Source of the DNA: Gracilaria domingensis
Taxonomy: Eukaryota > Rhodophyta > Florideophyceae > Gracilariales > Gracilariaceae
DNA length: 64,000 nt
NCBI GenBank assembly: GCA_022539475.1
Contig: VCMS01000277.1
Coordinates: 1-64,000 of the forward strand
Direction: 5' to 3'
Below are positions 1,434 through 64,000 of the stretch, in pieces. Both the position numbers and the translations under genes were made by a program. Each line of letters starts with the position of its first letter. Within the stretch, counting starts at the first letter, position 1. The notes under the pieces were generated by a model. The model saw only the letters and a program-made list of their open reading frames with translations. It did not search any database and was not told the origin of the DNA.

Positions 1434-4400
1434 ATGGCACCACAACTTCGGAGCGGGACCAAAACTGCTGAACCGAACGCAGCGACGGGGAACGCATCCA
1501 CAGCTATGAAGTCGAAGCCCGCACCAGGCGAAGAAGTGACCTTGTTGTTGGGAGGGGCAGGAGGGAACAAAGCAGCGATTGGGAAAGCTGTTCTCGTTGA
1601 AGCGGACGCTGGTGGAGGGAAGACAACGTTCAGAAGGAAAATGCATGGACATGCTCTGCAGGGAAAACCAGGCGAAGATGTAGTTGGTATATGGCGAGCG
1701 AAGATATCTCATGAGCTTGACACTCCCTATCCCTATCCCTTTAAGTGTACCGATGAAGATTCTGTTCCGAAGACATTGAAGGACATGAACAGGCCCGGTT
1801 TCTACGCCTGGGACCTGAACTTAATGTCTAAGGTGGGTGACGTCGTAAGCGCTGATGAAGGGGACAAGGGTGCTCCGAGTTCCAAATTCGTCGCCCCTGA
1901 GAAGCCATCGAATACTGCTGGGAAACGGGTGCGAGTGGTAGAACCTAAAACTCCATCCAGTGGCCGAAAGCGAATACCGATGAAAGTGGCTCATGTGAAA
2001 ACCCCGTCGAATGCTAAAAAACCCAAGGCAGGAAACAAGCGCCAGTACCAAAGCTGAAAACACCATCGAACGTTCACGGTGGTGGAAAGCAGATGCAAGA
2101 ATTCAAGATGACCACGACCCCAGAGAGTGCTGTATCGGCATTTCGTAAACAAATTGCTACGATTGTGCAGTCTGGAGCATCGAGGAACAGCACTGCGGAA
2201 GCTATTACTCAGGCTGGAAATCGCAGTGGAGTGACAATAGAAGTGATTGACGTGGATGAAGACGAAGACGAAGACGTGGTTCTAGTGAAGGAAAGCCTTG
2301 GAAGCAACGTCAATGAACTCTTTGATGAAGGTGATGTGATACCTCCTGATGATGTCGATACGAGTTTAGCGAGTTTGGTATTTGACTTAGATCATTACGA
2401 GTACGTGTCGGTTGAAGTCGATATTGAGCTCATTCAAGTTCCGGATATGACTGTGAGAGGGTTGTTCCGGAATCATGTCGAGGCTCTGAAAGAAGAGATT
2501 GGACGCAGGAGCTTCTCACAGGCACTTGGGACCATGAGCGTTGCTGTTCTGTCTCAGGATGTGTCCGAGAAAGACATAGTGCAGAAAAATCGCTTGAAAG
2601 TGAATTGTGTGCTGATTGATGGAGCTCATCGTCATGTAGCACTCAAAGAGCTCTGTGAATCTATGCCCAACATTAGGAATCTATGTGGAGGTCTTTCTGT
2701 TTCGCTGTGGAAGAGAAAAGATGGACAGAAGATGACCACGAGGGAAATCTTGAGCCTTGGCAATGTGCTAAACGATGGATTGAAGCAAGCTCGTCTTATG
2801 GGTTTTGCTGACAAGGTGCATTCTATTGTGTCATTTATAAGGGTCCTGGTTGAGGAAGAGAAGAAGGACTTGAGCAAGATGACGAGGACCTCTGTCGCAG
2901 GTGCACTAAGTGTTTTCGGTATCATTGGCCAGTACAATATCAAGCATTTGGCAAGATTTGCAGAGATGGGGTTGAAGGTGGCGAGAAGTCCTGGATTGCT
3001 GGAACATTTGGAGCGGATTTGTGGGGACTACCATGAGATTGGAATTTCTTGTATATCAAGTGATGAATTCTTTACCATGGATGAGCATACAACCCACTTC
3101 ACGCTCGACGCTCTGGTTGCATACTTTTCCAGGAGGCGAGTGTCGAAACTGACGGGTCGTTTTGAAGACGTACGCAAATACTTCTTTTTCTGCTGCAGGA
3201 GGCTTCAATCTTTGGCAGAGGAGCTTTCGAAGAAGAAGAAAGTTACATTGGAAGAAGCGTATGCCATGAAGGTGGAAGTGACAAAGTTTGAAATGCGCAC
3301 CGTTCGTGAGTACCTTGCAACACAGGCAGCACGAATTGAAGTACCTACGAATAAGAAGCTCTGGGAAGGAAGGATTTCGAGAAGAGTCTGGATTGCTCGT
3401 GATAAGCTGGCAAAGAGTTTAGGGGTGGATATGTTGAAACCTGCCACTGGTACTGCGCCGACTGAACCACAGTCTGAGACCAAAGCGGTAGACGAGTCTA
3501 CAACGCAGAGAATAGCCACACGTTCGGCAAGTAGGAAGGCCAAAGCGCCAGTGCGCAAGGGCTCTAAGGACTCTGATGTAGAAAGTGAAGAGAATATGCC
3601 ATCGAAGACAAGAAGCATGAGGAGTTCAAGACGAAGCCGTCGACGAAGGAATACAATGAGAGACGTGAACCCTAATCAACGGAAGAAGTCAAGGACGGAG
3701 GGTATTCAATCTGTTCAGAATAAAGTTATTAGTCATCTGCGGAGTCTTGGTGCGAAGGGGGTGAGAAACTTGTTGAAAAGTCATCAGATATCCATTGGCA
3801 GCGACACAGACTCAGATGGAGTACCAATTGTGGTCTCACAGGCAGAGGACACTGACCCGTTCGATGACACAGTACCGCAGGTGTTGGCGCCAGGTCTGAA
3901 GAAGGCTGAAGAAGTAGCATATGAAGGTGACTATTCGTGGCTAAAGTTGGTGAAGACCTTACCAAGCAAGTGGCCGACTGGAGTGGAGAATGTCATTAAA
4001 TCTGTGTACTCGTGGATGGATGCGATACATCTCCAGAAGCAACACCGAGGCCACTTGTTGGAGCCCAAGGACTTTGAAAGTGTGCACCATGCAGTCTTTT
4101 GGCATGCAGCGTATCATGGCCATAAACTCCTGAACGCGGCAATGGGAGGCATGGAGGTCGACGAGAAGACGTTATGGGGGGATGCACTGAAGAACGACTC
4201 TCTTGCGTATGTCTATTTTGTGAAGAAGAACGTCGAGCTTCGAGACAGAGGTTTCTGTATTCTGGACGGCTTTGCATCGGATGGAGAGTTGGTGAAGCTG
4301 ACAGAGAGTTTGAGCAAGCTCATTGACGGGGATGTTAGTGTGGAATTACTGGACTTCTTCCGAAGGGACTTCGAGAGGGCTCCAGACCTTAGGATACCAG

Positions 4401-5212
4401 AGAACCGAATCACGTGGATACCGATCATCAACGCAGATGGTGGGAGGTACATGACTACGAGAAGAGGCATAGTGGATGACATGGAGACAGCCGTAGAGAG
4501 ACATGTGCTTGTGAAGAAGAGAGCTTTACTGGATGCCCGACTGGGACAGATATGTGCTTTAATGGGTTTACAAGATAATAGGGTGGAAAACGAGAGGATG
4601 TATGCGCCGAAGACGGGGGGGAGGGTGTTATGCACTGCAGTTGGATGCAAGCGGCAGCAGTTACATACGGATTTCCCGACCTTGGCGAATGAGGATAAGC
4701 TGGAAGAAAAGAAGAACCCGGGGTACTTTATGATGGTGTCCGGAAGTGTGTCGTTTCCAATTTGGGTATGTGAAGGGTCTCATACACACTACGCAGTTAC
4801 TCCCAAGGCATTTGAAGGTTTGGCACGGGGGATGTTTGTGAGGAAGTTTTTCGTTCGGCCTAAGTCTATATTTATTGGAAGAGGTGATGTGTTCCATGCA
4901 GGCGCTTCAAATGAGGATGGAAGATTCCCCGAGATTCCCTTGTTTCGTTAGCACATGTACATGGTACCTGAGAAATACAACCTCCCGGATGCGGTACACC
5001 TTAACCCACACTTTCGACCTCAGTTCAAGGAGGATGAAGACCTGGTTAGTATGAAGGAGAAGAGGAAGAATCCAGAACCGTCGAATTTGGAGGAGGAGAA
5101 TGATGAGGTGATAGTAGAGGAAGGGGAAGAACAGTATGAAGAAGATGACGAAGATGAGAATTATGAAGTGGAGGAGATTGAAAACGATCTTGAGGATGGC
5201 GAAGAGGACTGA
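1434..5212 (+). pseudogene. ParB-like / 2OG-Fe(II) dioxygenase-like fusion protein, nearly intact
   Basis: About 1260 codons from the ATG at 1434. Seen in order: a low-complexity basic/Pro N-terminus with a degenerate P-loop-like ADAGGGKT (1602-1625); a hydrophobic/acidic EVIDVDEDED motif (2240); a ParB-like domain ending in DGAHRH (2618-2635); a helical middle; an Arg/Ser-rich NLS-like stretch (about 3600-3700); and a C-terminal double-stranded beta-helix dioxygenase. The last has HxD (His 4664, Asp 4670), a distal His (4895) and a following Arg (4946), then an acidic tail. ParB-fold domains bind DNA or nucleotides; 2OG-Fe(II) enzymes hydroxylate substrates, including DNA bases in the TET/JBP group. 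Action on DNA or chromatin is inference. Frame changes once near 2036, where the same lysine/proline repeat continues in the other frame, and one in-frame TAG follows the Arg at 4949. The other arm has Tyr at that codon. Confidence 0.7.
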
Positions 5213-5489
5213 GTGAATATGTGATGAAACTTTGTAGTAATCTATGTGTCGAATATAAGTTCGAAGTAAATGATCTTGTGAATCGAGAGAAAGTTTAAGA
5301 ATTGTGGAAGCGACGACTCTACCCAAGATTGAAGGGTAGGATAGGATACCATACCAAACACTTCAATCCTGGAGAGCGTCATGAACAAGTGGGAACTATG
5401 TTTGTAGAGAAGAGATTCTGTTTAGTTGAAACATGTATCAGTTATGTACTTATGTTCGTATACTACTTGTCTCGCACTTGGTGAATACG

Positions 5490-6692
5490 TCAGCCAGAAG
5501 GCAGTAGATGTTGTGTCGGGGGTCTAGGGTGCTCACCAATGGCGCACAAGTATCGCTTTGCGTTGATTCTTGGTGCGTGTTTGACAACTCCGGAGCATAC
5601 AAGTAGTACAATGAACAAGGTGTTTGTGAGGAGGGGCGGGATACCTCTGTACGAACCAAAGGATTCGGGGTCCAAAGACTCGGAGAGTGTGTGTGCGAAG
5701 AAAACTGGGACCACTCTGTTCAGAAAAAGTCTGATAGAAAGCAGGAAATCCTGAAGGAACAAAGCTTTCCGGAACGAGTTTAGAATACAACGGCAGTACG
5801 GATTTAGCCCTCTTCTCCGGTATACCACCCGATTGGAGAGCGGAACTATGTTGTTAAACGTATGTTTTGTAGAGAAATAGATCCCAAATGTGTTGATGAG
5901 AATGGTGAAGAAGCCGAAGAAGAAACCGCCGGGGAAGAAGGAAATACATACAGTTTTGAGAGACTCCATGACATCGATTGGAGGAGGACGGAGCTGATAG
6001 GTGACGAAGATAGAGAGGTTGAGGACGATAAGCCCACCGATGCCCATGCCGAGGTATTTATTCCTCAGTGCCGAAACGGTGCTGGATGTGTGCGACGGAG
6101 TCATTGGACCATATGCGAGTCTACCATACCTTGTGGCGTGGAGAGAGAATGCCAATTCAAACAGAATAATGTGAAACATAGTTTCGAGCATGCTGTACGG
6201 GATGGTGAATCCCAGTTGTGTTTGGCGGGAGGAGCGATCGTAGAGAAGAGCGTGTGTTGTGAGAGGCTTTATAATCCCATAGAGAGCTCCTATGGCTACT
6301 GAAACGAAGAGGGAGAATGCCAATAGAGAGGAAAGCGAGAGCATGTTCAGGGGATTATGTGAATAAGACCGAGCCTCTGACATGTAGTTGGGTAGCTCTG
6401 AAAGATTCCCAATTGTGTGGAAGAAGGGAGGATGTTCAAGGACTCGGTCATGAATTGAAACTTTGTGAAGTATGTCATAAACATCACTGAGTTCATCCAG
6501 CAGTTCGGGGGATAAAAGGGTCTGGACTCCTCGAACCGTGGCTTCCCCGGTGTCAACGTCGTACTTCAGTTGAAGGCAGTCGTCAAAGGTGATGTATGTC
6601 CTATGGGGAAATGCGTTGAGATGGATAGGTATGAGAGCAGTTTGGTTGCGAAGCTGTACATGCGATACCTTGTCGGTGTTTTGGAAGGCCAT
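5490..6692 (-). CDS. Multi-span membrane protein of unknown function
   Basis: An open 400-residue frame from an ATG at 6692 in good context (ACAATGG). Residues 1-115 are soluble. Then come about five hydrophobic segments, at roughly 118-145, 168-185, 213-233, 247-272 and 360-372, one of them unusually Phe/Gly-rich. I recognise no catalytic motif or family. It lies tail to tail with the ParB-dioxygenase gene and head to head with the charged helical gene. The order and orientation are the same in the other arm, so the three genes travelled as a block. A TATA-like box and a pyrimidine tract lie just upstream. The copy in the right arm is broken, so this is the better guide to the protein. Confidence 0.6.
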   Translation of the reverse strand: MAFQNTDKVSHVQLRNQTALIPIHLNAFPHRTYITFDDCLQLKYDVDTGEATVRGVQTLLSPELLDELSDVYDILHKVSIHDRVLEHPPFFHTIGNLSELPNYMSEARSYSHNPLNMLSLSSLLAFSLFVSVAIGALYGIIKPLTTHALLYDRSSRQTQLGFTIPYSMLETMFHIILFELAFSLHATRYGRLAYGPMTPSHTSSTVSALRNKYLGMGIGGLIVLNLSIFVTYQLRPPPIDVMESLKTVCISFFPGGFFFGFFTILINTFGIYFSTKHTFNNIVPLSNRVVYRRRGLNPYCRCILNSFRKALFLQDFLLSIRLFLNRVVPVFFAHTLSESLDPESFGSYRGIPPLLTNTLFIVLLVCSGVVKHAPRINAKRYLCAIGEHPRPPTQHLLPSG

Positions 6693-6775
6693 TGTGAGCT
6701 CTGCTGCCTGTGAGTAGGTAGGAAAGAGGAGAAGAAATGAAGAAAGAAGGGGCGAGGAGAAGATATATTTATTGA
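6693..6775 (-). promoter_or_regulatory. Promoter-like leader of the membrane protein gene
   Basis: On the minus strand an AATAAATATATC-type TATA-like box (6762-6775) lies about 75 bp upstream of the ATG. Between them is a C/T-rich tract ending in CTCACAG about 15 bp before the ATG. That tract resembles a polypyrimidine tract plus 3' splice acceptor, so a short 5'-leader intron or trans-splice site is possible. The same arrangement is kept at 51673-51753. Confidence 0.35.
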
Positions 6776-6920
6776 GAACGAAACGAGCAGATATTACCTA
6801 TAAAGAGGTGTATCGAAGGAGCTATATCTATGTTTTGTTTCCTTTAAGGCTTTTAAATTTGAAGTGAAGAAGGTGTTCATAAACGAGTGGCGAACTTAGC
6901 ATCTGTGATGGAAAAGCTAT

Positions 6921-7724
6921 GAGGATTCGCGTTCGAACATTAGGTGGCCGTGGGAGTCGGACGAAGGGGTACGGTCGCACAAGAAGTTAAAGAGTGTGTT
7001 CGAGGAGGAGGAAGAAAAGGACGAGCTGGACTGGTGGGCCACTGCAGTGCTGGGGTGTGCCCGAGCGATGGGGACGCGCATGGTAGAGGACGTGGGTCGA
7101 CTGACGAAGAAGGTGACAGGGTTCGTGGTTAGGGAACTGAGGGGGATGAAAGAGGAGCAGAAGGAGATGATGAAACGCATTGAGAATCTGGAGGGGAGCT
7201 CAAAGGAGGTAAATGGGAGGAAGAAGGGCGGGGTAGGGGGTGTGGAGGGAACGCCGGTAACTCTGGCGCCGAAGACGAAGATCGTGAACGGCGTTGGGGT
7301 AGGAGTGTGCATCGGAAGCGAGGACGAGGATGCGAGAGGCTTTGTACCGGCGACGGATAGTTTTGGGGCGGATGAGGTGATGGAGGGAGAATTGGTGAGG
7401 AAGAGAGGTCTGAAGAGGAAGGTTGGCGAGAAGAGGCCGATCCAACCGAGGAGTGTGGGGGTAGAAGAGGATGAAATTCAGCCGAAGGTGGAGAACAAGA
7501 AAGGAAAAGGGGATAGTAAGAAGAGGACACGGGTTGGGTTCAGGACGGTTCCGAAGCCGGTGTGGAAAGGGAGCACTGTTGTTGGATACGAGGAGAAGTG
7601 GAGCTGGGAGGATGTTGTGGAGGATGAGGAGGAAACCGTTGAGAATGATGATGGGAAAGAATTTCGTACGCTATCATTCGCGGATGTGGAGGTAGAGGAA
7701 GGAGATGAAGGTGCTTTACTTTGA
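6921..7724 (+). pseudogene. Charged helical protein gene, 5' end deleted
   Basis: The frame is open from 6921 to 7724 but has no ATG at its beginning. The right-arm copy shows that the normal start (MSDEDSRS...) and the whole upstream region were removed by a deletion of about 430 bp. The product has an acidic patch (EEEEEKDEL), an amphipathic region around MVEDVGRLTKKV and MKEEQKEMMKRIENLE that could form a short coiled coil, then a Lys/Arg-rich middle and an acidic C-terminus. No family recognised. The composition suits a small nuclear or nucleic-acid-associated scaffold, which is a guess. Unlike the right copy, its middle is free of stop codons. Confidence 0.55.
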
Positions 7725-8151
7725 TTGAGGTGATACAGTAGTTGCCGGGTTGATGGAGGTAGAAAAGCGGTGGGGGAATGGATGTGCGCAACTACCATTT
7801 CATGAATGTTGTACTAGCCAGAGTTAGTTTACATTCATTATTTGTGTTTATTTGCAATCGACAAGTATGCAAGTGCCGTTGGTAGCTTCCAGATCGAGCT
7901 ACCACCTAATCCGTCTGAGTATACTAGGTACAGAAACTTTCATGTCATCGAGGTGAACTAGCAATTATGTCCGCTTTCACTCATTCTACAAATTCTGTAG
8001 TATTGCTTGAATAAATGAAAGTATGGTATCCAAAAAATTTTTTTTTTGGCTTGCACATAGCCGTACATTCAATTCTTTGCACATTTTCTAACGATTCAAT
8101 CCACAAAATAGCATTCTAGCCTCTTTACATAGCGTTCCGGAAACACAGACG
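7725..8151. other. AT-rich tail of the left arm
   Basis: No gene. It contains an A6T10 run near 8031-8046 and is conserved in the other arm (49874-50226), including the boundary sequence. It could be a 3' flank or an end region of the original element. Confidence 0.5.
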
Positions 8152-49830: not shown

Positions 49831-50300
49831 TACGAGCAAAAACGCCATTTTTTTCGCGTCGTCAAACTGACAACGTCTGTGTTTCCGGAACGCTATGTAA
49901 AGAGGCTAGAATGCTATTTTGTGGATTGAATCGTTAGAAAATGTGCAAAGAATTGAATGTACGGCTATGTGCAAGCCAAAAAAAAAATTTTTTGGATACC
50001 ATACTTTCATTTATTCAAGCAATACTACAGAATTTGTAGAATGAGTGAAAGCGGACATAATTGCTAGTTCACCTCGATGACATGAAAGTTTCTGTACCTA
50101 GTATACTCAGACGGATTAGGTGGTAGCTCGATCTGGAAGCTACCAACGGCACTTGCATACTTGTCGATTGCAAATAAACACAAATAATGAATGTAAACTA
50201 ACTCTGGCTAGTACAACATTCATGAAATGGTAGTTGCGCACATCCATTCCCCCACCGCTTTTCTACCTCCATCAACCCGGCAACTACTGTATCACCTCAA

Positions 50301-51113
50301 TCAAAGTAAAGCACCTTCATCTCCTTCCTCTACCTCCACATCCGCGAATGATAGCGTACGAAATTCTTTCCCATCATCATTCTCAACGGTTTCCTCCTCA
50401 TCCTCCACAACATCCTCCCAGCTCCACTTCTCCTCGTATCCAACAACAGTGCTCCCTTTCCACACCGGCTTTGTAACCGTCCTGAACCCAACCCGTGTCC
50501 TCTTCTTACTATCCCCTTTTCCTTTCTTGTTCTCCACCTTCGGCTGAATTTCATCCTCTTCTACCCCCACACTCCTCGGTTGGATCGGCCTCTTCTCGCC
50601 AACCTTCCTCTTCAGACCTCTCTTCCTCACCAATTCTCCCTCCATCACCTCATCCGCCCCAAAACTATCCGTCGCCGGTACAAAGCCTCTCGCATCCTCG
50701 TCCTCGCTTCCGATGCACACTCCTACCCCAACGCCGTTCACGATCTTCGTCTTCGGCGCCGGAGTTACCGGCGTTCCCTCCACACCCCCTACCCCGCCCT
50801 TCTTCCTCCCATTCACCTCCTTTGAGCTCCCCTACAGATTCTCAATGCGTTTCATCATCTCCTTCTGCTCCTCTTTCATCCCCCTCAGTTCCCTAACCAC
50901 GAACCCTGTCACCTTCTTCGTCAGTCGACCCACGTCCTCTACCATGCGCGTCCCCATCGCTCGGGCACACCCCAGCACTGCAGTGGCCCACCAGTCCAGC
51001 TCGTCCTTTTCTTCCTCCTCCTCGAACACAGTCTTTAACTTCTTGTGCGACCGTACCCCTTCGTCCGACTCCCACGGCCACCTAATGTTCGAACGCGAAT
51101 CTTCATCGCTCAT
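50301..51113 (-). pseudogene. Charged helical protein gene, right copy, with full 5' end
   Basis: Retains the ATG at 51113 (MSDEDSRSNIRWPWESDEG), missing from the left copy, and the promoter-side sequence. Residues 1-93 are open, then one TAG (50832-50834) replaces the GAG found in the left copy. The remaining 171 codons are open in the same phase to 50301. So the full protein is about 265 residues: acidic N-terminus, short coiled coil, Lys-rich middle, acidic end. Divergent from the membrane protein gene. Function unknown. Confidence 0.6.
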
Positions 51114-51672
51114 GGTCGCGTTGGTAGAAGATCTGGTAGAAGAGCAAAAGGGATATCGAAAGAAGAGAAATCAGGGAAGCCGAAAAGAACAGAACTCGCT
51201 GATCATTCCTTCGCAAACCGATCACGGTGTACCAAGGGTAGACGCTTTCGTCCCATGACACTGTAGTATCGCCGCACCCGCTCATATCCGTCCAACCTCT
51301 GCATCGCAATTATTTTCATATTTACTAGCACAATTCTTCACTTTTGAACACTCTCTATGCTTCTCATTCTCCAAGTTCTCCCAACCGTTGCGAGAAGGGC
51401 GTCCCTTTTCATACATGGTTCATGCCAGTAGTATATGAAATGAAATCATACCACTACCATCATATCATGATTCTTCCGTCCTCTTCATCGCCCTACATTT
51501 TACTCTTCATGTACTCCGTCTTTTCATAGCTTTTCCATCACAGAAGCTAAGTTCGCCACTCGTTTATAAACACCTTCTTCACTTCAAATTTACAAGCCTT
51601 AAAGGAAACAAAACATAGATATAGCTCCTTCGATACACCTCTTTATAGGTAATATCTGCTCGTTTCGTTCTC

Positions 51673-51753
51673 AATAAATATATCTTCTCCTCGCCCCTTC
51701 TTTCTTCATTTCTTCTCCTCTTTCCTACCTACTCACAGGCAGCAGAGCTCACA
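51673..51753 (+). promoter_or_regulatory. Promoter-like leader of the membrane protein gene, right copy
   Basis: TATA-like AATAAATATATC at 51673-51684, then a C/T-rich tract and CTCACAG shortly before the ATG at 51754. Matches the left-arm leader (6693-6775). Confidence 0.35.
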
Positions 51754-52932
51754 ATGGCCTTCCAAAACACCGACAAGGTATCACATGTACAGCTTCGCAA
51801 CCAAACTGCTCTCATACCTATCCATCTCAACGCATTTCCCCATAGGACATACATCACCTTTGACGACTGCCTTCAACTGAAGTACGACGTTGACACCGGG
51901 GAAGCCACGGTTCGAGGAGTCCAGACCCTTTTATCCCCCGAACTGCTGGATGAACTCAGTGATATTTATGACATACTTCACAAAGTTTCAATTCATGACC
52001 GAGTCCTTGAACATCCTCCCTTCTTCCACACAATTGGGAATCTTTCAGAGCTACCCAACTACATGTCAGGGGCTCGGTCTTATTCACATAATCCCCTGAA
52101 CATGCTCTCGCTTTCCTCTCTCTTGGCATTCTCCCTCTTCGTTTCAGTAGCCATAGGAGCTCTCTATGGGATTATAAAGCCTCTCACAACACACGCTCTT
52201 CTCTACGATCGCTCCTCCCGCCAAACACAACTGGGATTCACCATCCTGTACAGCATGCTCGAAACTATGTTTCACATTATTCTGTTTGAATTGGCATTCT
52301 CTCTTCACGCCACAAGGTATGGTAAGACTCGCATATGTCAATGACTCCGTCGCACACATCAGCACGTTCGGCACTGAGGAATAAATACCTCGCATGGGCA
52401 TCGGTGGCTTATCGTCCTCACTTCTATTTCGTCACCTATCAGCTCCGTCCTCTCCAATCGATGTCATGGAGTCTCTCAAACTGTATGTATTTCCTTCTTC
52501 CGGCGGTTTCTTCTTCGGCTTTTCACCATTCTCATCACACATTTGGATTTTTCTCTACAAACATACGTTTAACAACTAGTTCCGCTCTCCAATCGGGTGG
52601 TATACCGGAGAAGAGGGCTAAATCCGTACTGCCGTTGTATTCCTAAACTCGTTCCGGAAAGCTTTGTTCCTTCAGGATTTCCTGCTTTCTATCAGATTTT
52701 TCTGAACAGAGTGGTCCAGTTTTCTTCGCACCACACTCTCCGAGTCTTTGGCCCCGATCCTTTGGTTCGTACAGAGGTTCCCGCTCCTCACAAACCCTTG
52801 TTCATTGTACTACTTGTATGTCCGGAGTGTCAAACACGCACCAAGAATCAACGCAAAGCGATACTTGTGCGCCTTGGTGAGCACCCTAGACCCCGCACAA
52901 ATCTACTGCTTCTGTGCTTCCCGGCGACGTGA
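51754..52932 (+). pseudogene. Membrane protein gene, right copy, broken
   Basis: Identical in plan to the intact left copy (5490-6692) for the first 190 codons, with only a few substitutions. Then repeated one-base losses put it out of frame from about 52320 onward. The losses fall mostly in short runs or doublets (for example CCC to CC, GGG to GG), and almost all are deletions. Confidence 0.7.
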
Positions 52933-53439
52933 GTGTAATCTGATTGTCAATAGCCTAACTCATTCCTGTTCACCCTATAGATCGATATGGTCATGATCCG
53001 TCACAATCCGTCACCTTTCGCTCTGAGTAATTCCTCCAATCATCGTACTATAACGTCTAACTCCTATCTTCGTCACCTATTCACTCGTCCTCCTCCAATC
53101 ATGTCATAGTCTCTCAAAACTGTCGATGTTTTCCAACTAAACAGGATCTTCTTCCTTCTCACATCCAAACATTGGCCTCTCACGAACACATTTCGCTTCC
53201 ATTATAGAGGGGGTAAATGACTGCCTACAAACTCGGGAAACTTTGCCTTAGGTGTTCTGGTTATGAGACTTTCCTATACCAATTCCCAGCTTCGACACAT
53301 CTGAGTACCCGAATCTTTGTTCGTCAGCTATCCCTTCACAATTCTTAAACTTGTACTGCTCCCGGATCTCAACAAGCATCATTTACTTCGCGAACATATT
53401 CGACACATAATTACTGACAACAGTTTCACACAATATTCT

Positions 53440-55935
53440 ACTCAGTCCTCTTCGGCCTCTATCCTCACAATTCCTCACTTCAAGTCCATCTTCCATTTCA
53501 TACTGTTCTTCCCCTTCCTCTACTATCACCTCATCATTCTCCTCTTCCAAATTCGACGGTTCTGGATTCTTCCTCTTCTCCTTCATACTACCAGGTCTTC
53601 ATCCTCCTTGAACTGAGGTCGAAATTGGTTAAGGTTACCGCATCGGGAGTGTATTTCTCAGGTACCAGTACATGTGGTAACGAACAAGGAATCTCGGGAA
53701 TCTTCCATCCTCATTAACGCTGCATGAACACATCACCTCTTCCAATAATATACTAGACTTTCACAATCGTCAATGCCTTGGGAGTAACTGCGTAGTGTGT
53801 ATGAGACCCTTCACATACCCCAAATTGGAAAACGACACACCTCCGGACACCATCATAAAGTACCCCGGGTTCTTCTTTTCTTCCAGCTTATCCTCATTCG
53901 CCAAGGTCGGGAAATCCGTATGTAACTGCTGCCGCTTGCATCCAACTGCAGTGCATAACACCCTCCCTCCCGTCTTCGGCGCATACATCCTCTCGTTTTC
54001 CACCCTATTATCTTGTAAACCCATTAAAGCAACTATCTGTCCCAGTCGGCATCCAGTAAAGCTCTCTTCTTCACAAGCACATGTCTTTCTACGGCTGTCT
54101 CGATGTCATCCACTATGCCTCTTCTCGTAGTCATGTACCTCCCACCATCTGCGTTGATGATCGGTATCCATGTGATTCGTTCTCTGGTATCCTAAGGTCC
54201 GGAGCCCTCTCGAAGTCCCTTCGGAAGAAGTCCAGTAATTCTACACTAACATCCCCGTCAATGAGCTTGCTCAAACTCTCTGTCAGCTTCACCAACTCTC
54301 CATCCGATGCAAAGCCGTCCAGAATACAGAAACCTCTGTCTCGAAGCTCGACGTTCTTCTTCACAAAATAGACATACGCAAGAGAGTCGTTCTTCAGTGC
54401 ATCCCTCCATAACGTCTTCTCGTCGACTTCCATGCCTCCCATTGCCGCGTTCAGGAGTTTATGGCCATGATACGCTGCATGCCAAAAGACTGCATGGTGC
54501 ACACTTTCAAAGTCCTTGGGCTCCAACAAGTGGCCTCGGTGTTGCTTCTGGAGATGTATCGCATCCATCCACGGGTACACAGATTTAATGACATTCTCCA
54601 CTCCAGTCGGCCACTTGCTTGGTAAGGTCTTCACCAACTTTAGCCACGAATCGTCACCTTCATATGCTACTTCTTCAGCCTTCTTCAGACCTGGCGCCAA
54701 CACCTGCGGTACTATGTCATCGAACGGGTCAGTGTCCTCTGCCTGTGAGACCACAATTGGTACTCCATCTGAGTCTGTGTCGCTGCCAATGGATATCTGA
54801 TGACTTTTCAACAAGTTTCTCACCCCCTTCGCACCAAGACTCCGCAGATGACTGATAACTTCATCCTGAACAGATTGAATACCCTCCGTCCTTGACTTCT
54901 TCCGTTGATTAGGGTTCACGTCTCTCATTGCATTCCTTCGTCGACGGCTTCGTCTTGAAATCCTCATGCTTCTTGTCTTCGATGGCATCTTTTCTTCACT
55001 TTCTACATCAGAGTCCTTAGAGCCCTTGCGCACTGGCGCTTTGGCCTTCCTACTTGCCGAACGTGTGGCCATTCTCTGCGTTGTAGACTCGTCTACCGCT
55101 TTGGTCTCAGACTGTGGTTCAGTCGGCGTAGTACCAGTGGCAGGTTTCAACATATCCACCCCTAAACTCTTTGCCAGCTTATCACGAGCAATCCAGACTC
55201 TTCTCGAAATCCTTCCTTCCCAGAGCTTCTTATTCGAAGGTACTTCAATTCGTGCTGCCTGTGTTTCAAGGTACTCACGAACGGTGCGCATTTCAAACTT
55301 TGTCACTTCCACCTTCATGGCATACGCTTCTTCCAATGTAACTTTCTTCTTCTTCGAAAGCTCCTCTGCCAAAGATTGAAGCCTCCTGCAGCAGATAAAG
55401 AAGTATTTGCGTACGTCTTCAAAACGACCCGTCAGTTTCGACACTCGCCTCCTGGAAAAGTATGCAACCAGAGCGTCGAGCGTGAAGTGGGTTGTATGCT
55501 CATCCATGGTAAAGAATTCATCACTTGATATACAAGAAATTCCAATCTCATGGTAGTCCCCACAAATCCGCTCCAAATATTGCAGCAATCCAGGACTTCT
55601 CGCCACCTTCAACCCCATCTCTGCAAATCTTGCCAAATGCTTGATATTGTACTGGTCAATGATACCGCAAACACTTAGTGCACCTGCGACAGAGGTCCTC
55701 GTCATCTTGCTCAAGTCCTTCTTCTCTTCCTCAACCAGGACCCTTATAAATGACACAATAGAATGCACCTTGTCAGCAAAACCCATAAGACGAGCTTGCT
55801 TCAATCCATCGTTTAGCACATTGCCAAGGCTCAAGATTTCCCTCGTGGTCATCTTCTGTCCATCTTTTCTCTTCCACAGCGAAACAGAAAGACCTCCACA
55901 TAGATTCCTAATGTTGGGCATAGATTCACAGAGCT
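53440..55935 (-). pseudogene. ParB-dioxygenase gene, right copy, missing the ParB half
   Basis: Begins at the hairpin junction; the first codons are junction sequence (RLIRSYVASN) fused to ELCESMPNIRN. An open stretch of 621 codons (54131-55996) matches the left copy with fewer than twenty residue differences. A lost base near 54179 then breaks it; the dioxygenase block with HTDFP is still seen at about 53930-53950. At the codon that is TAG in the left copy this one has TAC, but other small losses follow. Cannot make a full protein. Confidence 0.75.
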
Positions 55936-55963
55936 CATTCGAAGCTACATAGCTTCGAATGAG
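55934..55963. repeat. Perfect 14-bp inverted repeat with 2-bp loop at the duplication junction
   Basis: Arms 55934-55947 and 55950-55963 (CTCATTCGAAGCTA and its complement) are separated by CA. It sits exactly between the end of the inverted arm and the methyltransferase gene; the first 3 bases overlap the arm. Such a hairpin is what a fold-back or template-switch joining event, or hairpin-ended intermediate, could leave. Confidence 0.9.
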
Positions 55964-55978
55964 ACGCACGGGAGACGG

Positions 55979-58420
55979 ATGGCACATGCAGTGCAAACAA
56001 TTTGTAAGGGATGGGATTTCTTTGCCTCAACCTTAGGCTTTGGTGATGGTGAGCAGATGTTGCTGCCATACCTGCTTGTAGAAAAGAAGTCGCTTGGGTT
56101 CCATGTCATTGAATCCCGCTCTGTTGGGTACAGTCCGGAGTCAGCTTTTCATACGTTGGGGGAAGAACTGAAACCCACGTTGGATGTGAACGACACCGTT
56201 TCTTGGGTTCATACTCTTCCGGATACTATCGGCGCCAACTTACGGGAGTTGGCAAAGGAATTCTTGGCAGATTTCAGCAAGATTGTGTTGAATGGCTTCC
56301 TATACAAAATGTCCCCAACGTCAAGATGGAATTTGTTGGAAAGCTTCAGACCTGGCCGCCCCGCACGAGTACCACCCCGTTTCATTGTATTCTCCGAAGA
56401 GTACGTGTCTCCTATTCGTCAAGCGATGTCTGTACATAACTTCCAACCATCTCGACGTATCCCTAGGGCCGCTCCTTCAGGGCAGGATGGAGGAAGTAAT
56501 ACCGTCACGGTTAAGGTTGAGGACTCGATACAGATTCCGAGCTCCTCCAAGAGGAACGCCGCAGGGAAAAGCTCAGTTAACTCCGATGTCATCGTCATCT
56601 TCGATAGCGACAATGAAGAGGGTGATACACCTGGTGCCTCTGTTGGGGCGAAAGATAACGTTCCAGATGGGGTTCTCCCCCCTCATGACTTTGATGACAC
56701 GCGCACGTTAAATGCTCTATATGTGGTGCGAGGAAGCATGGAGAAGCAATTCTCAATGCATTGTGTCGGATATGACGAACTGGTGGAGGCCCATGGTACT
56801 ATCTTCCCATCGGATACATCTTTGGAAGGCAACGTTCAGTTCGTGCTCACAGACCCACCATATGGCATCCGCGACAGCGAGTACGACGAATTGGCTGACA
56901 ATGATATGGACAATACTGCGGACATCATGGCATCCATGCTTCGACCAGGAGGACATTTCGTTTTGTTCTGCAGTATCGACCAGTTTGGAGACTGGGAAGA
57001 GATTTTGCGAGAGCACAAGTCGGAGGACGCAAGCGGAAAGAAAACCGCATCATTCTTAGTGGATTCGACGCCCATGAACTTCATTCGTTCTCGTTCGAAC
57101 CCCTTGAAGAACCCTGCGCGTAATACTACTCGCCTGTTTGGGGCGACGGAGTACGCCGTGCATGGCGTGAGGAATGGAAACCCGTACGCGGAACAGAAGG
57201 TAATGGTGAACGATCAGAACTTCAACTACGTTTCAGCTCGCTATCCTGGGCACTATTCTATCATTGACCAGGTTCCAAATCTTACGCCTGGGGAGAGTCT
57301 CCGATGGAGAGTGAAGAGTGGTAGAAGAATTCGAACCGCGAAGGCTCGTCCAGAACAAAAGTCGAGGCAGCTACTGATGGAGCTGATAGCGAGATTCTCG
57401 AATCCCGGGGATGTTGTGGTTGATCTCTACTCCGGAACGTTCTCGTGCGCGCTGGCATGTATGGATATTGAGGGGCCTCGGCGTTTCATTGGATGTGAGC
57501 AAGATGAGCAGTGTTTCTCTTATGCCAAGCACAATGCTATTGTGCATTACGCAAGAAAGGTGTGGCGCAATGAATTGAAGATGAAAGAACCGGTTACGAA
57601 TGAGGTAGTTCAAGCGTCTTATGTGGTGGATGCCAAATTTCCTGAACGGAAACGAAAGACTTCGACTATATGGAATGCACCCAAGAGATTCCCATCGTAC
57701 CAATCTTTCCCATTCCATATCATGTCGTACCTATCCACATATTGGAATGAACCTGGTCTTATCACTACGTACAAAGAGAAACCGTTCCATGAGTGGCCAC
57801 TTGCCTTACAAGGGAAGATGACTACGTTGGACAGTCAAACTTTACTCTCTGTCGAGGCGACATCGCTATGGCTCTATGTGAAGAAGTCGAATATCAAACA
57901 TGCAGCAAGTGGAAATGGAGTATTTACGAGTAGGGCGTTTTCCGAAGGGGAGGTTATTGGATACTTTTATGGGACCTTGGTGTATCATGATCTAAGCCGA
58001 CGCAATACCACACATTTGACGTATGGAGACGGAATGCTGGGGGCCACTGCATCTCGGTTCAGGAAGTATTGCATGCAAGTGAGGGTGAAGGGGCAAATGT
58101 ACAACACTCTCCCGCATTATGATACTGAAGTCAACGCTGGTCATGCCTGGATAGTTCCTGCTCCTTTCTGTGTAGCGGGCTAGATCAATGACGCGTCATA
58201 TCGTGAAGGTGATGAGGACAAGGAATTGGAAGAAATGGATTCTAACATGGCACGCAAACCAAATGTATTCATTCGCCAGCCCACAGATTATCAGGCTACA
58301 ACTTTGGGGCTTTTGGAGAACTACAGACTCCTCGTAGTCACGGCCTCAAGGGACATTAAGGAGCACGACTAAATTTACGTTGACTATGGACCCACATATC
58401 CTTGGGAAAGGTTAACCTAG
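55979..58420 (+). pseudogene. DNA methyltransferase (beta-class DPPY) fused to a SET domain
   Basis: 813 codons from ATG 55979 (GGATGG). Residues 1-200 are unrecognised. Residues 203-214 are DVIVIFDSDNEE, a SUMO-interaction-like motif. At 292 is DPPY (56852-56863), the amino-methyltransferase catalytic motif. Then comes the AdoMet-binding block at 482 (DLYSGTFS, 57422-57445), preceded by RPEQKSRQLLMELI and followed by GCEQD. Catalytic-before-AdoMet order marks the beta class, which makes N6-methyladenine or N4-methylcytosine. From about 600 a SET domain: GNGVFTSRAFSEGEVIGYFY (645), then IND (58184) and VDYG (58379-58390), the order used by histone lysine methyltransferases. A TAG (58181) and a TAA (58370) interrupt the SET half in phase; the methyltransferase half is open. 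A DNA-and-histone writer in one chain is inference. Its upstream DNA is the junction hairpin, so the original promoter may be lost. Confidence 0.75.
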
Positions 58421-58884
58421 GTTCTCAGACAATGTCCTTGAACTTCGTATGGGCTCATTGTAGTGAGAAAAGCTTTTTGTTGAAGTAAATTGTATTGAAC
58501 ACTTGTGCTATGATTGCAGAAATACTACTCATATGTACACTCAAGCTGTACTGTGTAACATATTGATGCATATAGTGGTATGAAAGATCGTTGAAAGTGC
58601 CGGACTTTTATATGCAGGGCGCAACATCCGGGAAAATCGGACCAAGTCCGGAATATGGACCCGGGAAAGGTCCAAAAATTGAATGCCGATCCGCCACAAA
58701 TGCTGCAGAATGCTTTTCTCCATATATGCAGTACGAGGTTAAATTCCCCTCTCCTTCACATATCAGTCCTGCACACCGAGTACGTGACCCTCACATATTA
58801 CTATCAATCATATACCTTCAGTATCGTTCACGTTTCTATATCTGTTCCGTAATACTACCGCGCACGAAGGCCGAAGGATCTCGA
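58421..58884. other. Intergenic spacer before the coiled-coil gene
   Basis: No gene. GTCC/GGACC words cluster at 58630-58675. The last 150 bp are C/T-rich and probably hold the leader and promoter of the next gene, but I see no clear TATA box. Confidence 0.4.
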
Positions 58885-61437
58885 ATGGCCCCTCAACGTG
58901 CGGAGCATGCAGGTGGTAAACCGCGAAAGGCATCGGTACCGCCGGAGCGCTGGGATACTGGGGTGGCCAAACGTAGGAGCGCGGTCGTCTCACGAAGTAG
59001 TGCTACTAATGGGAGAGGTAGCCGAAGCTGAGCACCTCGTGCTGGACTTCGCAAACCAAAATCTTCATCTACAGTATCGGAAGTAAAACCGAGGAGGAGG
59101 TCAGGAGCTTCCACATGCACTACGGAACGCACAGTAAGTGAAACCGTTCAAGCCAAGGATAGTGCAATGCGTGGGCCTGTTACACGCCACATGGCTGCAA
59201 TAGAAGAGCCAAGGGTCAGTGATGATGGAAATGTATATGTCAAAGCGATGAAAGGAAATAAGAGAAGAACGGCTGTACGTCAGAATGTAAGGAGGACAAG
59301 AGGCAGTGGAGGGACAGAAGGTCCTCGTATTGATGATTGTTTCGACAAGGTGAGAACTGCGGATGACAATGCGGAGATGGAAACCGTGGATTGCGCCATC
59401 GTGAGAGCCGAACCTAGAGCCGAACCTGGGGATAGGGAGATACCCAGAAGCGCTCCCGGAACAGAACGTAACAGTTATGATTCGAGAAAAGTGAAGAGGA
59501 ACGAGAAAATGAATGAGGGTGTCTCTCGTGCCAAGAAAGGCAGTGGAAGAAAGGAGCGGGAGTCCACGGACGCAGTAGATATCCCAAGTGACGTCGAGGA
59601 CAAGGATAACCTGGAGGCGAACGATAACGTGGACGCCGGAAATGCAACGCATATGGCTCCCATCGAAGGCAGGCATGATTCCGTCCCTCGTATTGGGTCC
59701 AGACACAAGGAAGACGAAGACGAAGACGAGATACAACCGACACCAGTCACAGGTGAGTCACAGAGAAACAGGTTCAATCAGGTCAGAAGAAGGACGAACC
59801 ATGGAAATGAGAATAGACGGGTGGGGAACGATCGGCAACCTGTCATAGCAAACGCCCGTAGAAAAGTATGGAACGATAAAGATGTTGATCGTGGTGCTTT
59901 GTCACGGAGCTTTTCCCTGCATGGTGCAATGGAAGAAGATGAAGATGAATCCCTTACTCCGCGATACGAGCTTTTGGAAAAGACCGGGAAACTGAAGGGA
60001 GATCTGTATCGTACAATAGAGGACAAGCAAAGTCTGAAAATGAGCGTACGACTTGCTCAGAAGAACATAGAGCAAGTGGAGGTTAAGGTCAGAAAACAAG
60101 AGGTTCTCATACACTCTTTGAGAGAGGCTCTCAGACGTGGAGGGAAAAGGAACGAACGTGACAGTAACAAGAGCAGGAAGCGGTACAACATTGACGTGAA
60201 CGACGAGTTTGTTGGTGTTGCGAAGACCGTCTATGACTCCATACTTCAATACGCCAAAGACGAGACAAGAGAGCTATGCTTCGAGATGAGTATACCGGCA
60301 AGGAACTGGGGCAACCGAAGTGAGACAGTTGGACCTGAGAAAGACGACAGTGTGCTGGTTGTTGATGGGAAGGAGATAGTGCCACGGTGCCCAATGGATC
60401 TTGCCATGGAGATGAGGGCGTACACGCCATCCGTACGCGGTGGAGGCGACCATTTGTTGATGCAAATTGTGGAGACGGAGGTAATGAAGCCACGTTGGGA
60501 ATCTATCCGAGGAATGAAAATGGAAGATGACTGTGTGAAACAGTTAACGTACGACATTTGTTTGCGCAGAAGGTTGAGACAGGCTTTAAGTGATGCAATA
60601 GGTGTTCGAAAACGCCATGCGAAGGAGAAGTTATTGATGGGACTAGGTTACGACATGCTTTTAAGGACCCCGATAAAAAACGATGAAAGGGAGCAGAACA
60701 AGTATGAAATACAAACCAGAGAGGTACGTGAAAAACTCCTACCCAAAGATGCAAATGGATGTGAGATTCTGTCGTCGTGGAGAACTCAGAAGGTAGAAGA
60801 TATATGTTTCTCGGGCTTTAACCCATATCATGCAACCGAAGATGAACCATGTGACTTGCTTTTTCGGAACAGCCTGAGCTTGGAGGTGCTGCGTGAGTTC
60901 ATGGGCTACGACGTTTTACAAACAAGTTCGAGGAATACCGAAGAGAGGGATCCAGTGGATGGAACAATTATGGATCTGGCACGTCTTGATGCCTGGATAG
61001 CGTCCGTTGTTCGCGCGACAGAGTCTGAACGAGGGAGAGGTGGTAAGAGACAAGTGTTGTTCTCCAACTTGTTCGGGAAATATCTACCACTGGCACTTGA
61101 GAGTATACTGAAGACCGTGAGGGTCCGCATGCAGCAGAGTTATCCAACAGAGTTCAGAAATGGCCCATCGAATGCTGAAGATGCGCGGCATGGAAATGAT
61201 GACCAGGTGGGCACTGTGGTTTACTGGATTCCGTCGAAAAGGAAAATGTACCTTGCTGTCCGAGAAGATGTGTTTATGGGAGAGATCTCTGAGAAGCTCG
61301 GAGCTGTACTGGATTGCTATGTAGGATGCTGCAGTCGGGGAGACCGTATGTTCTACGACATAACTGCAGAGAGGGATGTGAGGGAAAGGTCTGTGCAAGA
61401 AGGATTGCATGAGGAGAATCGGATAGAACGTCACTAA
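58885..61437 (+). pseudogene. Large charged coiled-coil protein, one in-frame stop
   Basis: Start chosen at ATG 58885 (MAPQRAEHAGGKPRKAS), because the frame upstream of 59167 stays open back to a single TGA (59029-59031) and then again to this ATG; total 850 codons. If the TGA is real, translation could begin at 59167 (756 codons). The N-terminal 350 residues are Arg/Lys/Asp/Glu-rich and disordered. Residues about 362-420 form a convincing coiled coil (LLEKTGKLKGDL..., QSLKMSVRLAQKNIEQVEVKV). The C-terminal 400 residues look globular, with no family recognised. It is tail to tail with the transposase gene, so probably an accessory protein of the same element (DNA binding or complex assembly), which is inference. 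Its MAPQ start recalls that of the ParB-dioxygenase protein. Confidence 0.6.
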
Positions 61438-61453
61438 TGCATTATGGTTTACG

Positions 61454-63928
61454 TTACGAAAGTTTGGTGATTGGATGGTAGTGTAAACGAGCTCGGGGAT
61501 TGCGATAGAATCTGTTAATGTAGAATCGGTGGAACTTCCAGTGCAATGGAGGGAAAAAGGGGCGTGCGGGAGAGTTTTGTCGGAGGATGTGTACCGAGCC
61601 TTTCATCGAAGAGAATGGGACGAGACCGAACCATGGGGATACAGATGCAGTTGTTGACCGTTTTAGAGAATTGGAGGTTTGCAATGTGTGATCTTCCTCG
61701 TCATCCGTGGCCCAGCGGAGGGAAATGCAGTTCAAGGATTCGTCAATGTTATCCAACGGCTCCGTTACCTCGAAGAAGCGAACAAAGGCAAATTCTGAAT
61801 CGGAATTGCTTTGGTTACATCTGCTAAAGCGAACCAGGGCAAAGACTTTGCATACCCATGCGGTCGGGAAGTCACAACCGAGAGGAGAAGTTCCATTAAC
61901 CAGGACGGTAGAGAATTTTGGGGACTTGGAAGAGCCAAAAGAAGTGGTTGCAAAAATACGTTCACACAAAGAGATCTCCGGCTCTCGCAGTCTAATGCAT
62001 TGAAAGTGACGATCGTAGTCATCCAGCGAGGGGCAGAATCCAGAAACAATGTAAGCAGAGTTAACAACGGTGATTTTGATGTCATGGGGGTTGTCCAACG
62101 GTTGAAGAGTTTCTAAGCTTAGGGTACGGAAGGAAGAGAGGTCGTCGCGAGAGATTTGGTTCATGAACTGCAATGTAGTTTTGGAGAACAAATCTGTGAG
62201 AGCAGATGACGGGACGTTTGGATGGGACCGTAGATACTTGTCGGCCGTGATGATGTCGAAGAGGTAGAATGAACTACCATCACGAACCATGGAGGGACAC
62301 CGCTGCGGCAAACGACTGGCCGAGTTGGTAGACATGGAGAAGTGTTTCCTTACCGAGATGGAGTGTAAGAAATCCTGCGACTCTTGGATTGAGTCCACTG
62401 TTTCCTTATGCGCAGTTGATCTTCTGCGAGAGGTACGGCGGTAGGGGTTCTTGAAGAGGAGATGCGCGTGCTCGTACACACCTGCATCACCGAAATGGAG
62501 GCCTCCGTATCGACGGATGTCTGGAATGATGTGATCCAGGAGATGGAATTTGAGAGTACGAAAGTTGGAGGCCTGGTATGGACCCAAAACTGAGACAGTT
62601 TGAGTCTTGAAGTTTTTGATGAGAGTCTTCAAAGAGCGTAAGCGATCATCAGTCCATTCTGGGGCAGTGTGGTAGTGAAGAACGTTATTGACGAGATCGA
62701 CGTAAGAGGTGAAAATGGTGGTTATTGGGGCGGGAGATACTTCACCGCAGCAACGGTCGAAGAATGCACCGATGAAGGGGAAGATCATGTCGAGGGCGCG
62801 ATAGTCCTTTGCTTCTAGCATGCCTCTGATTCCGTCAGTGGTGAAGAAGCCGTTGAGAGACTTACCCTTTTCAGATGTCGAGAAATCAATATGAAGCCCT
62901 GGAGCCGGAAACGAGCGTTCGATGTCAGCTAGGATGGAGTTGGCGTGAGTAAGAATAGATGTTCTGATGGACCGAAACGACCTGGAGGATCCATTGAAGC
63001 CCACGGAAGTGTGTAGAGAATCGGACTTCAGGCGTTCGATTGTGGCGAGTTTGATGAGTTTAGAGATGCCAAGGTGAAAGTTGTGAAGGGGCTCGAAGGA
63101 GAAGATTGAATAAGGAGTGAGCAGTGAAGAGATGTTGAGAAGAGGGTAAGATTCCAGAAAGGACTTGTATGGAGAGAGAGAGGTGGAGTGGAGAAGTTCT
63201 GCAGCTTCTTCTTTGAGGTTCCTTGCAACCCGTGGTCTATGGGAGAGGAGAGCAGAATCTGCCTCGAGAAGTAGGTCATCATGTCTTTTTCTGGTTTGCA
63301 AAGTGTGTGAGAGGGTTTGCTTTGTGAGAGTAGGTTGGTAGAGGTTGAGTTTTGAACGAGGGAGGAGACACCGGTGGCAGGGTTTGCTTGGCTTTGTGCC
63401 ATGAAGTTGTGCGAGAATGTCCTTGGCTTCGGGGATGTCAGCGCTGTAGTTGGAGATGACTGGATGGCATTGACGAAGGACTCCTTTGGCGTCGCGCAAG
63501 GGAAAACCCTTCATACCGATATGATACAGAGGTTTGAGGATGGTTTCTAGGGACTTCTGGACGAGCTGCATGCGCACAATGCGGGTCACGCTGGGGGTTG
63601 AGGGAGCGACTTCCAAGGAATCTGTGTCAGTGGAGGACGAGTCGGAGATGAAGGATGTGGGTATGTATCCGACGAGTGTGCAGTTCTGCGTGATGCACTT
63701 TCTGCGCAAGGAGTCATTGAAATTGAGGACGGTGATGTGAAGAGGATACGACGTAACAGAAGAACTTTTCAAAGAGGTGGAAGACTTGTCTGAATATAGT
63801 TGAACGAGGCCGACGAACGAGTCTGTGCCGGTGATACTGGGATCGTGCCAGATGACGTCGGGGTCCGGAGAATGCATGATATGCCTCTTGATAGTCGGGA
63901 CGACATGGCGGCCGAGTTCCGAAGCCAT
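61454..63928 (-). CDS. Plavaka-type transposase (CACTA superfamily)
   Basis: An uninterrupted frame of 824 codons. Family features in order: SYPLHITVLNFNDSLRRKC and TLVGYIPTSF (residues about 60-95), as in the Plavaka pattern YPvyltignipk.iRRkps...GYlPt. Then IVRMQLVQKSLETILKPL (117-134), GFPLRDAKGVLRQCHPVIS and YSADIPE (141-167), a CHRC zinc-type pair (184-187), and FEPLHNFHLGISK (278-290), the position of the family's D/E-x-x-H-x-x block. The rest is helical with a late His/Cys pattern. It excises and inserts the element. Its 3' end lies 16 bp from that of the coiled-coil gene. The frame runs close to the window edge, so an earlier start outside cannot be excluded. It is the only long element gene on the right side without a lesion. 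Confidence 0.8.
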   Translation of the reverse strand: MASELGRHVVPTIKRHIMHSPDPDVIWHDPSITGTDSFVGLVQLYSDKSSTSLKSSSVTSYPLHITVLNFNDSLRRKCITQNCTLVGYIPTSFISDSSSTDTDSLEVAPSTPSVTRIVRMQLVQKSLETILKPLYHIGMKGFPLRDAKGVLRQCHPVISNYSADIPEAKDILAQLHGTKPSKPCHRCLLPRSKLNLYQPTLTKQTLSHTLQTRKRHDDLLLEADSALLSHRPRVARNLKEEAAELLHSTSLSPYKSFLESYPLLNISSLLTPYSIFSFEPLHNFHLGISKLIKLATIERLKSDSLHTSVGFNGSSRSFRSIRTSILTHANSILADIERSFPAPGLHIDFSTSEKGKSLNGFFTTDGIRGMLEAKDYRALDMIFPFIGAFFDRCCGEVSPAPITTIFTSYVDLVNNVLHYHTAPEWTDDRLRSLKTLIKNFKTQTVSVLGPYQASNFRTLKFHLLDHIIPDIRRYGGLHFGDAGVYEHAHLLFKNPYRRTSRRRSTAHKETVDSIQESQDFLHSISVRKHFSMSTNSASRLPQRCPSMVRDGSSFYLFDIITADKYLRSHPNVPSSALTDLFSKTTLQFMNQISRDDLSSFRTLSLETLQPLDNPHDIKITVVNSAYIVSGFCPSLDDYDRHFQCIRLREPEISLCERIFATTSFGSSKSPKFSTVLVNGTSPLGCDFPTAWVCKVFALVRFSRCNQSNSDSEFAFVRFFEVTEPLDNIDESLNCISLRWATDDEEDHTLQTSNSLKRSTTASVSPWFGLVPFSSMKGSVHILRQNSPARPFFPPLHWKFHRFYINRFYRNPRARLHYHPITKLS

Positions 63929-64000
63929 AGGGTGTGCGATTGCGGTAGTTCCTGTTCTTGAAGCTTGTTTGACTGGATGAAAGAAGGAGTTGCTGTGGGA
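63929..64000. other. Right edge
   Basis: Too short to judge; upstream flank of the transposase gene. The element's right terminus is not in the window. Confidence 0.4.

Follow-up and report, generated by a model that had tools for sequence, protein, structure and literature searches.

Architecture of the locus

The window analysed here, a stretch of 64,000 nucleotides from contig VCMS01000277.1 (C277) of the red alga Gracilaria domingensis, contains a large part of a giant transposon of Plavaka type, in which a DNA methyltransferase (MTase) and a SET domain are encoded by one gene, called MTase-SET below. The cargo of the element was arranged in the order gene 2 (minus strand), MTase-SET (plus), gene D (plus) and Plavaka transposase (minus), as listed in Table 1. 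The window copy of MTase-SET was damaged, and the complete protein was read from stop-free copies in the same genome (77.9 Mb, 680 contigs with C numbers). Copies of MTase-SET in this genome are given L numbers, and relatives outside it P numbers.

Table 1. Positions of the features in the window, counted from its first nucleotide
Feature	Position	Strand	Details
Giant Plavaka-type DNA transposon	49874..64000		extends to 66811 of contig C277; 16,938 bp
Left terminal inverted repeat, 22 bp	49874..49895	+	preceded by AA target duplication at 49872-49873
Gene 2 remnant	53668..55873	-	tblastn, own-genome search, alignment with P0023
Palindrome, 26 bp (12-bp arms, 2-bp loop)	55936..55961		at the junction of the ~3.1 kb deletion, between the divergent genes
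MTase-SET gene, damaged copy	55979..58420	+	~230 N-terminal residues gone; 2 stops within SET; end stop 58418-58420
N6_N4_Mtase domain	56834..57529	+	DPPY 56852-56863, DLYSGTFS 57422-57445
SET domain, interrupted	57911..58390	+	placed by homology to L002 residues 886-1045
Gene D	59032..61434	+	801-codon open frame, ATG 59167
Plavaka transposase, 3' part	61457..64000	-	Pfam PF18759 stretch 63062-63832; 1,110-aa open frame passes the window end
Gene 2 of second copy	2711-5200	+	match interrupted by one TAG
Exact terminus of second copy	8130-8151	-	terminus search

One polypeptide joins a DNA methyltransferase to a SET domain

The initial annotation, made from the window alone, had proposed a beta-class amino-methyltransferase followed in the same phase by SET-domain landmarks. 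The DPPY and DLYSGTFS motifs indeed shared one frame with motif IV preceding motif I, which is the beta-class order, and the window open reading frame (ORF) matched the Pfam family N6_N4_Mtase (PF01555; curated cut-off 26.7 bits) with 54.4 bits and an E value of 2.2e-14. The SET landmarks were also found in the phase of the MTase as proposed, but the frame through them was broken by two stops, TAG at 58181-58183 just 5' of IND and TAA at 58370-58372 just 5' of IYVDYG. Because of these in-frame stops, the window ORF was only 734 amino acids (aa) long and gave no Pfam SET match by itself. Homology to the copy L002 placed the SET-like stretch at residues 645-804 of the window frame, so that SET similarity was present after residue 600, as the initial annotation had required. 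Recoding of the two stops was ruled out, since both sites are sense codons in L002 and L048, which have no stops, and further copies contained stops of all three kinds at varied positions. Block alignment against the copy on C12 showed that the window copy has lost about 3.1 kb internally, with the ParB-like region of gene 2, the intergenic stretch and the beginning of MTase-SET. Judged from its sequence, the window copy of the element is a defective deletion derivative.

The fusion itself was established on copies without stops. L002, on contig C12, had no stop across both domains and encoded a full protein of about 1,055 aa, in which N6_N4_Mtase was matched at residues 527-758 with 55.2 bits and SET (PF00856; curated cut-off 22.4 bits) at residues 886-1045 with 28.4 bits (the numbering omits the initial methionine). 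L048, from a second subfamily, was likewise stop-free, with 1,057 aa, both domains and 64% identity to L002. A third subfamily came to light when the Chondrus relative described below was used as the own-genome query; its member L067 (contig C164) was stop-free and matched N6_N4_Mtase with 57.1 bits and SET with 32.4 bits, and its identity to L002 was 25% in the N-terminal region, 39% in the MTase and 44% in SET. The full protein was thus laid out as a conserved N-terminal region, the MTase and a C-terminal SET domain. Because copies as divergent as L048 and L067 retain both domains without stops, chance or mis-joined frames were ruled out, and the fusion is, by this comparison of sequences, a conserved family and not an accident of the window copy. 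A single polypeptide with both domains, first suggested from the broken window frame, was therefore found for all three stop-free genes.

With the window ORF as query, at least 70 matching stretches were found in the genome (61 scored of 916 candidates); among those longer than 1 kb, 35 had at least 85% identity (subfamily I) and 24 were below 85%. Profile searches of the genome gave at least 150 scored matches each to N6_N4_Mtase (of 328 candidates) and to SET (of 311 candidates). Eight of the listed SET matches, scoring 49.9 bits or more, looked like host genes, and the remaining 142 were termed element-type by their lower score alone. Among the best 70 of the 150 listed MTase rows, 46 had a listed SET match 365-437 bases downstream in the same orientation, and no row had a nearby SET match on the opposite strand. 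The number of pairs is a lower bound, because the known SET of L002 was itself absent among the matches listed. On contig C382, open frames of 1,169-1,170 aa at three loci matched both MTase and SET, the latter over a longer span, and are perhaps a further subfamily.

Amino-acid change was constrained, with pN far below pS. This constraint, the stop-free copies in three subfamilies and the retention of both domains are difficult to reconcile with the view that the gene is passenger DNA without a present role, its frames left over from an older function. Many of the listed copies were partial or stop-bearing and the frames around SET were mostly short, as such a view would have it, and we regard it as highly improbable.

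Relatives and domain motifs

Among 5.8 billion proteins, in which relatives were counted at E <=0.01, residues 500-1054 of L002 retrieved 22 relatives, for 12 of which the precomputed Pfam annotation showed both domains; query words from the first 500 residues of the same protein retrieved no relatives. When the 22 relatives, L002 and L048 were scanned singly (E 0.01), N6_N4_Mtase was matched in all 24 and SET in 22, which showed that homologues do not consistently end before the SET part. The sole relative with an organism name, P0009, was a Chondrus crispus protein labelled as an adenine specific DNA methyltransferase. Identity distances of the MTase and SET parts were correlated (r 0.76, 0 of 2,000 permutations; 23 proteins, P0021 and P0022 left out), with a permutation scheme that does not allow for shared descent. 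L002 and L048 clustered in the tree with P0001 (support 0.885) and P0002 (0.818), and L067 with P0003 (0.997); therefore, the subfamilies of this genome are not each other's closest relatives. A scan of IMG/VR returned 10 loci, all matching residues 489-774 only, and reported no match over the SET part. In this comparison, which did not extend to viral core genes, a viral origin of the whole element was not supported, as the viral similarity covered the MTase part only and the ends and the Plavaka transposase were those of a transposon.

The order of (D/S)PP(Y/F) before the S-adenosylmethionine motif was also found across the family alignment, with P0016 (DAPY) as the exception. The 50 listed matches to PDB structures were all taken up by the MTase domain, and in fold the modelled MTase half comes closest to N6-adenine enzymes. 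It is classed as a CcrM-like beta-class DNA amino-methyltransferase, most likely with N6-adenine as its target. The C-terminal blocks of the predicted structure (24 rows) reached pLDDT values of 66-95. Within SET, as counted by eye, the asparagine before D and the later asparagine were conserved, the final tyrosine was present in 21 of 24 rows and the DYG motif in 9 of 24, and N-H of the NHS/NHxxPN motif was replaced by N-D in 22 of 24. This replacement would suit a SET domain whose methylation target is not a histone but the fused enzyme, the transposase or some further protein, or one that only binds, with DNA methylation guarding against a host nuclease or serving replication. SET-named viral proteins need not act on histones, and such proteins were among the structure matches (E 4.8e-5, without aligned ranges), which points in the same direction. 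Both retained asparagines, the final tyrosine and the constraint on amino-acid change argue against this alternative, which appears unlikely.

The transposon and its copies

The initial annotation had also placed MTase-SET beside a transposase on a mobile element. The transposase matched the Plavaka profile PF18759 with an E value of 7.6e-23 over its window part and 6.1e-24 for the full protein on C12, and its 1,110-aa frame, as well as the frame of gene D, was open in the window copy, in agreement with that placement. The right-hand 8.06 kb of the element inside the window had 98.1-98.7% identity to copies on C12, C22, C233, C266 and C293 and 95.8% identity to the copy on C25, and the element copies had about 20 kb in common. 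The inverted end sequence CGTCTGTGTTTCCGG(A/G)A(C/T)GCTA was found at both termini. Exact termini occurred 73 times in the genome, and the reversed control gave 0. Twelve inward-facing end pairs lay no more than 30 kb apart, one of which, on C61, had ends of the same type and was not a true pair. The remaining 11 pairs spanned 13.2-23.1 kb; six of them, including the window copy with AA, had identical 2-bp flanks and five had differing ones, and about 0.7 of 11 would be expected to be identical by chance (hand calculation). Six of the 11 (15.6-22.0 kb, window copy included) enclosed a listed MTase, and five did not.

Plavaka elements, of the CMCT clade, are marked by target duplications of 2-3 bp and by C(2)C and H(3-4)H between the catalytic residues, and the PlavakaA and PlavakaB subgroups by the termini TGT..ACA or CATCA..TGATG (PMC12730594). 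CHRC and HLLDH, candidate counterparts of the first two motifs, were seen by eye in the C12 transposase. The termini CGTCTG..CAGACG fit neither subgroup. On its transposase profile and termini, the element is classed as Plavaka-type and set outside both described subgroups.

The order MTase-SET (plus), gene D (plus) and Plavaka (minus) was recovered by tblastn in all 7 copies of subfamily I and in 2 of the 3 copies of subfamily II that were compared, these 10 being picked from the best own-genome matches; the C231 copy of subfamily II lacked the right half of the element. On C264, from the third subfamily, partial gene D and Plavaka sequences were found before the contig ended. Among the Plavaka matches listed (123 scored of 672 candidates), a transposase was in place for at least 15 of the 35 subfamily-I genes, and an exact terminus lay within 14 kb of 22 of these 35 copies.

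Since MTase-SET adjoins the transposase in 9 of the 10 subfamily-I and -II copies, the protein could serve transposition itself. The MTase would methylate the ends or the newly replicated element so that the transposase could tell donor, hemimethylated and own DNA, and SET would modify the transposase, gene D or histones of the synaptic complex. The Dam-dependent timing of bacterial transposons is a precedent for methylation in the service of transposition. The many copies with a truncated, stop-bearing or frame-split MTase-SET speak against such a role, though help in trans is possible, and we judge it to be rather unlikely.

Gene 2 and gene D

Gene 2 lies divergent to MTase-SET and had 59 matching stretches in the genome, with stop-free frames of 1,326-1,327 aa on C140, C61 and C434. 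It was listed upstream on the opposite strand for at least 13 of the 35 subfamily-I copies and at least 9 of the 24 others. Its C-terminal part contained the pattern HTD...FHAGA...R, which recurred in P0023 (a protein from a metagenome, 30% identical across 57% of the query), and this motif pattern would be of the 2-oxoglutarate Fe(II) dioxygenase type. N-terminal of it, a DGxHR stretch was found, and gene 2 of the C231 copy gave a weak ParB-like PHROG match (E 0.012), which was seen neither for P0023 nor for the window remnant. Searches of Pfam and NCBIfam gave no family match for gene 2, Pfam gave none for P0023, and comparison of gene 2 with PDB sequences returned nothing credible; it is possibly an undescribed family. 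As an example of this conserved element gene without a Pfam match, L023:1817-5704 (minus strand) may be given. Gene D was charged and coiled-coil-like by eye, had no credible family match and occurred downstream of MTase-SET in further copies.

Proposed role of the fused protein

We tentatively propose, at somewhat less than even confidence, that the element uses the fusion to place both DNA and lysine methylation on its own chromatin and thereby stays expressible. A fused MTase-SET protein would be produced from the element, its MTase half would methylate the element DNA, and the tethered SET domain would methylate lysine on chromatin proteins at the element. The resulting open, expressible state would keep the transposase and the cargo on, as a form of anti-silencing. 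This model of permissive marking was favoured because N6-methyladenine (6mA) in eukaryotes has been located at transcriptionally permissive regions together with trimethylated lysine 4 of histone H3 (PMC12695648), because no C5-DNA-methyltransferase match was found, and because transposons with epigenetic enzymes are a precedent. The C5-DNA-methyltransferase profile (PF00145) had no match in this genome at E 0.001, a result that could also stem from split exons, and matched 10 of 14 prokaryotic control genomes. The MT-A70 profile (PF05063) matched neither this genome nor any control genome and was uninformative.

The marks might instead be repressive, set on host genes, on rival elements or on the element itself as self-limitation. 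The N4CMT protein of bdelloid rotifers marks transposons via its chromodomain and SETDB1 partners (PMC8885841). An element would seem to gain little from silencing itself, and 6mA accompanies transcription in the species encoding AMT1 that were covered by PMC12695648, so that silencing is considered quite improbable. A broader possibility, also doubtful in our view, is a self-contained epigenetic system carried by the transposon. This system would combine the bifunctional writer, which would place adenine (or N4-cytosine) methylation on the DNA and methylation on lysine in the element's own chromatin, with a gene 2 product (ParB-like plus dioxygenase-like) that reads or oxidises the marks, in a host without a detectable C5-DNA-methyltransferase. 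Chondrus and environmental sequences would contain its relatives.

Several observations weigh against the proposal that a fused writer keeps the element expressible. A 6mA role in silencing animal transposons has been proposed (cited in PMC12695648), the DPPY/DPPF motif does not separate 6mA from N4-methylcytosine (4mC), and gene 2 might oxidise or erase marks instead of cooperating. The N-D replacement in SET is a further point, as are the two of 24 family members without a SET match, probably P0021 and P0022, whose SET part is degenerate in the motif table. Linkage to the transposon was thinner outside subfamily I, with a listed transposase in place in only 2 of 32 rows of the third subfamily or others and an exact terminus within 14 kb of only 2 of the 24 copies under 85% identity, because of which no firm ends can be assigned to the other subfamilies. 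In addition, L068 (C163:112000-115800) was 99.8% identical to L067, with 3 substitutions and 3 single-base gaps across 3,152 aligned bases, and had its MTase in an 813-aa frame and its SET in a different frame of 253 aa. One gap fell within a G run and could be an assembly error, unlike the other two. Among the 142 listed element-type SET matches, 26 sat in a frame of 252 or 253 aa, one of which (L068) was read, and only 22 were in frames of at least 800 aa. If the 26 share the frameshifts of L068, copies can spread without fusion in cis, either aided in trans or because they can dispense with the product. These frame counts suggest that spread does not require a fused product in cis.

Relation to known systems

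The closest known counterparts of the MTase half are beta-class N6-adenine MTases (CcrM, M.BceJIV, MboIIA, M1.HpyAVI and RsrI), whereas here the domain is part of a protein of about 1,055 aa that is encoded by a eukaryotic transposon and also has SET and a long N-terminal region. Bdelloid N4CMT joins an amino-MTase to a chromodomain, but it is a host gene with a mark reader (PMC8885841), whereas MTase-SET is transposon cargo with a putative writer of histone marks. HarbingerS and MuDR of Phytophthora are likewise DNA transposons with SET cargo, of another transposase superfamily, and a DNA methyltransferase is unmentioned in the available part of that report (PMC12730594). A general Pfam scan of four window ORFs gave no Harbinger match, and no search aimed at Harbinger was made. 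Fungal transposons carrying TET/JBP, including Plavaka, similarly combine epigenetic cargo with 2-bp target duplications (PMC12730594); their cargo is a dioxygenase of 5-methylcytosine (5mC) and their termini differ, whereas here MTase-SET lies between CGTCTG..CAGACG. Gene 2, with its HxD...H...R pattern, was the candidate considered for a TET/JBP dioxygenase, and it matched no family as described above. The giant Plavaka repeats of Amoebidium are also intron-poor and multi-gene with a Plavaka transposase, and red-algal gene matches have been noted for them (PMC11244446). Compared by description only, they differ in their reported tyrosine recombinases, and MTase-SET is unmentioned in the available text (PMC11244446).

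No description of an MTase-SET fusion was found by searching open-licence papers; work by Iyer and colleagues may mention relatives. To our knowledge, SETMAR contains no DNA methyltransferase. In this primate protein, SET is joined to a transposon-derived sequence, but as a host gene with a transposase half (PMC8704517). The parts of MTase-SET are of known kinds, and one transposon protein joining a DNA methyltransferase and SET is undescribed as far as found; the Chondrus database record already shows both domains. Transposons with one epigenetic enzyme and a eukaryotic amino-MTase fused to a chromatin reader were known before. If the protein is active, DNA and histone writing would be physically coupled in one enzyme, the host would gain a DNA mark supplied by a transposon, and a direct test would become possible of whether mobile elements set up permissive chromatin for themselves.

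Additional observations

Positions 2711-8151 of the window contained a partial second copy of the element in the opposite orientation. The elements on C12 and C233 had an identical flank at one end (TGGGTTGTAAGGTC) and more matching blocks beyond it, which points to duplication of a region including the insertion. In the MTase part of L001-L008, 37 G>A and 15 C>T changes were counted on the coding strand, which amounts to a strand bias. Nine of these 52 changes were in CG (8 copies, sites with at least 6 agreeing, shared descent uncorrected); this small sample gave no CpG signature, and decay by 5mC or of the repeat-induced point mutation kind was rejected. The phycocyanin beta chain was nearest to the PDB chains 5y6p and 2bv8, from Griffithsia and Gracilaria, which makes a florideophyte red alga the most likely host. 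Contig C680 carried most of the phycobiliprotein matches and looks like a plastid genome.
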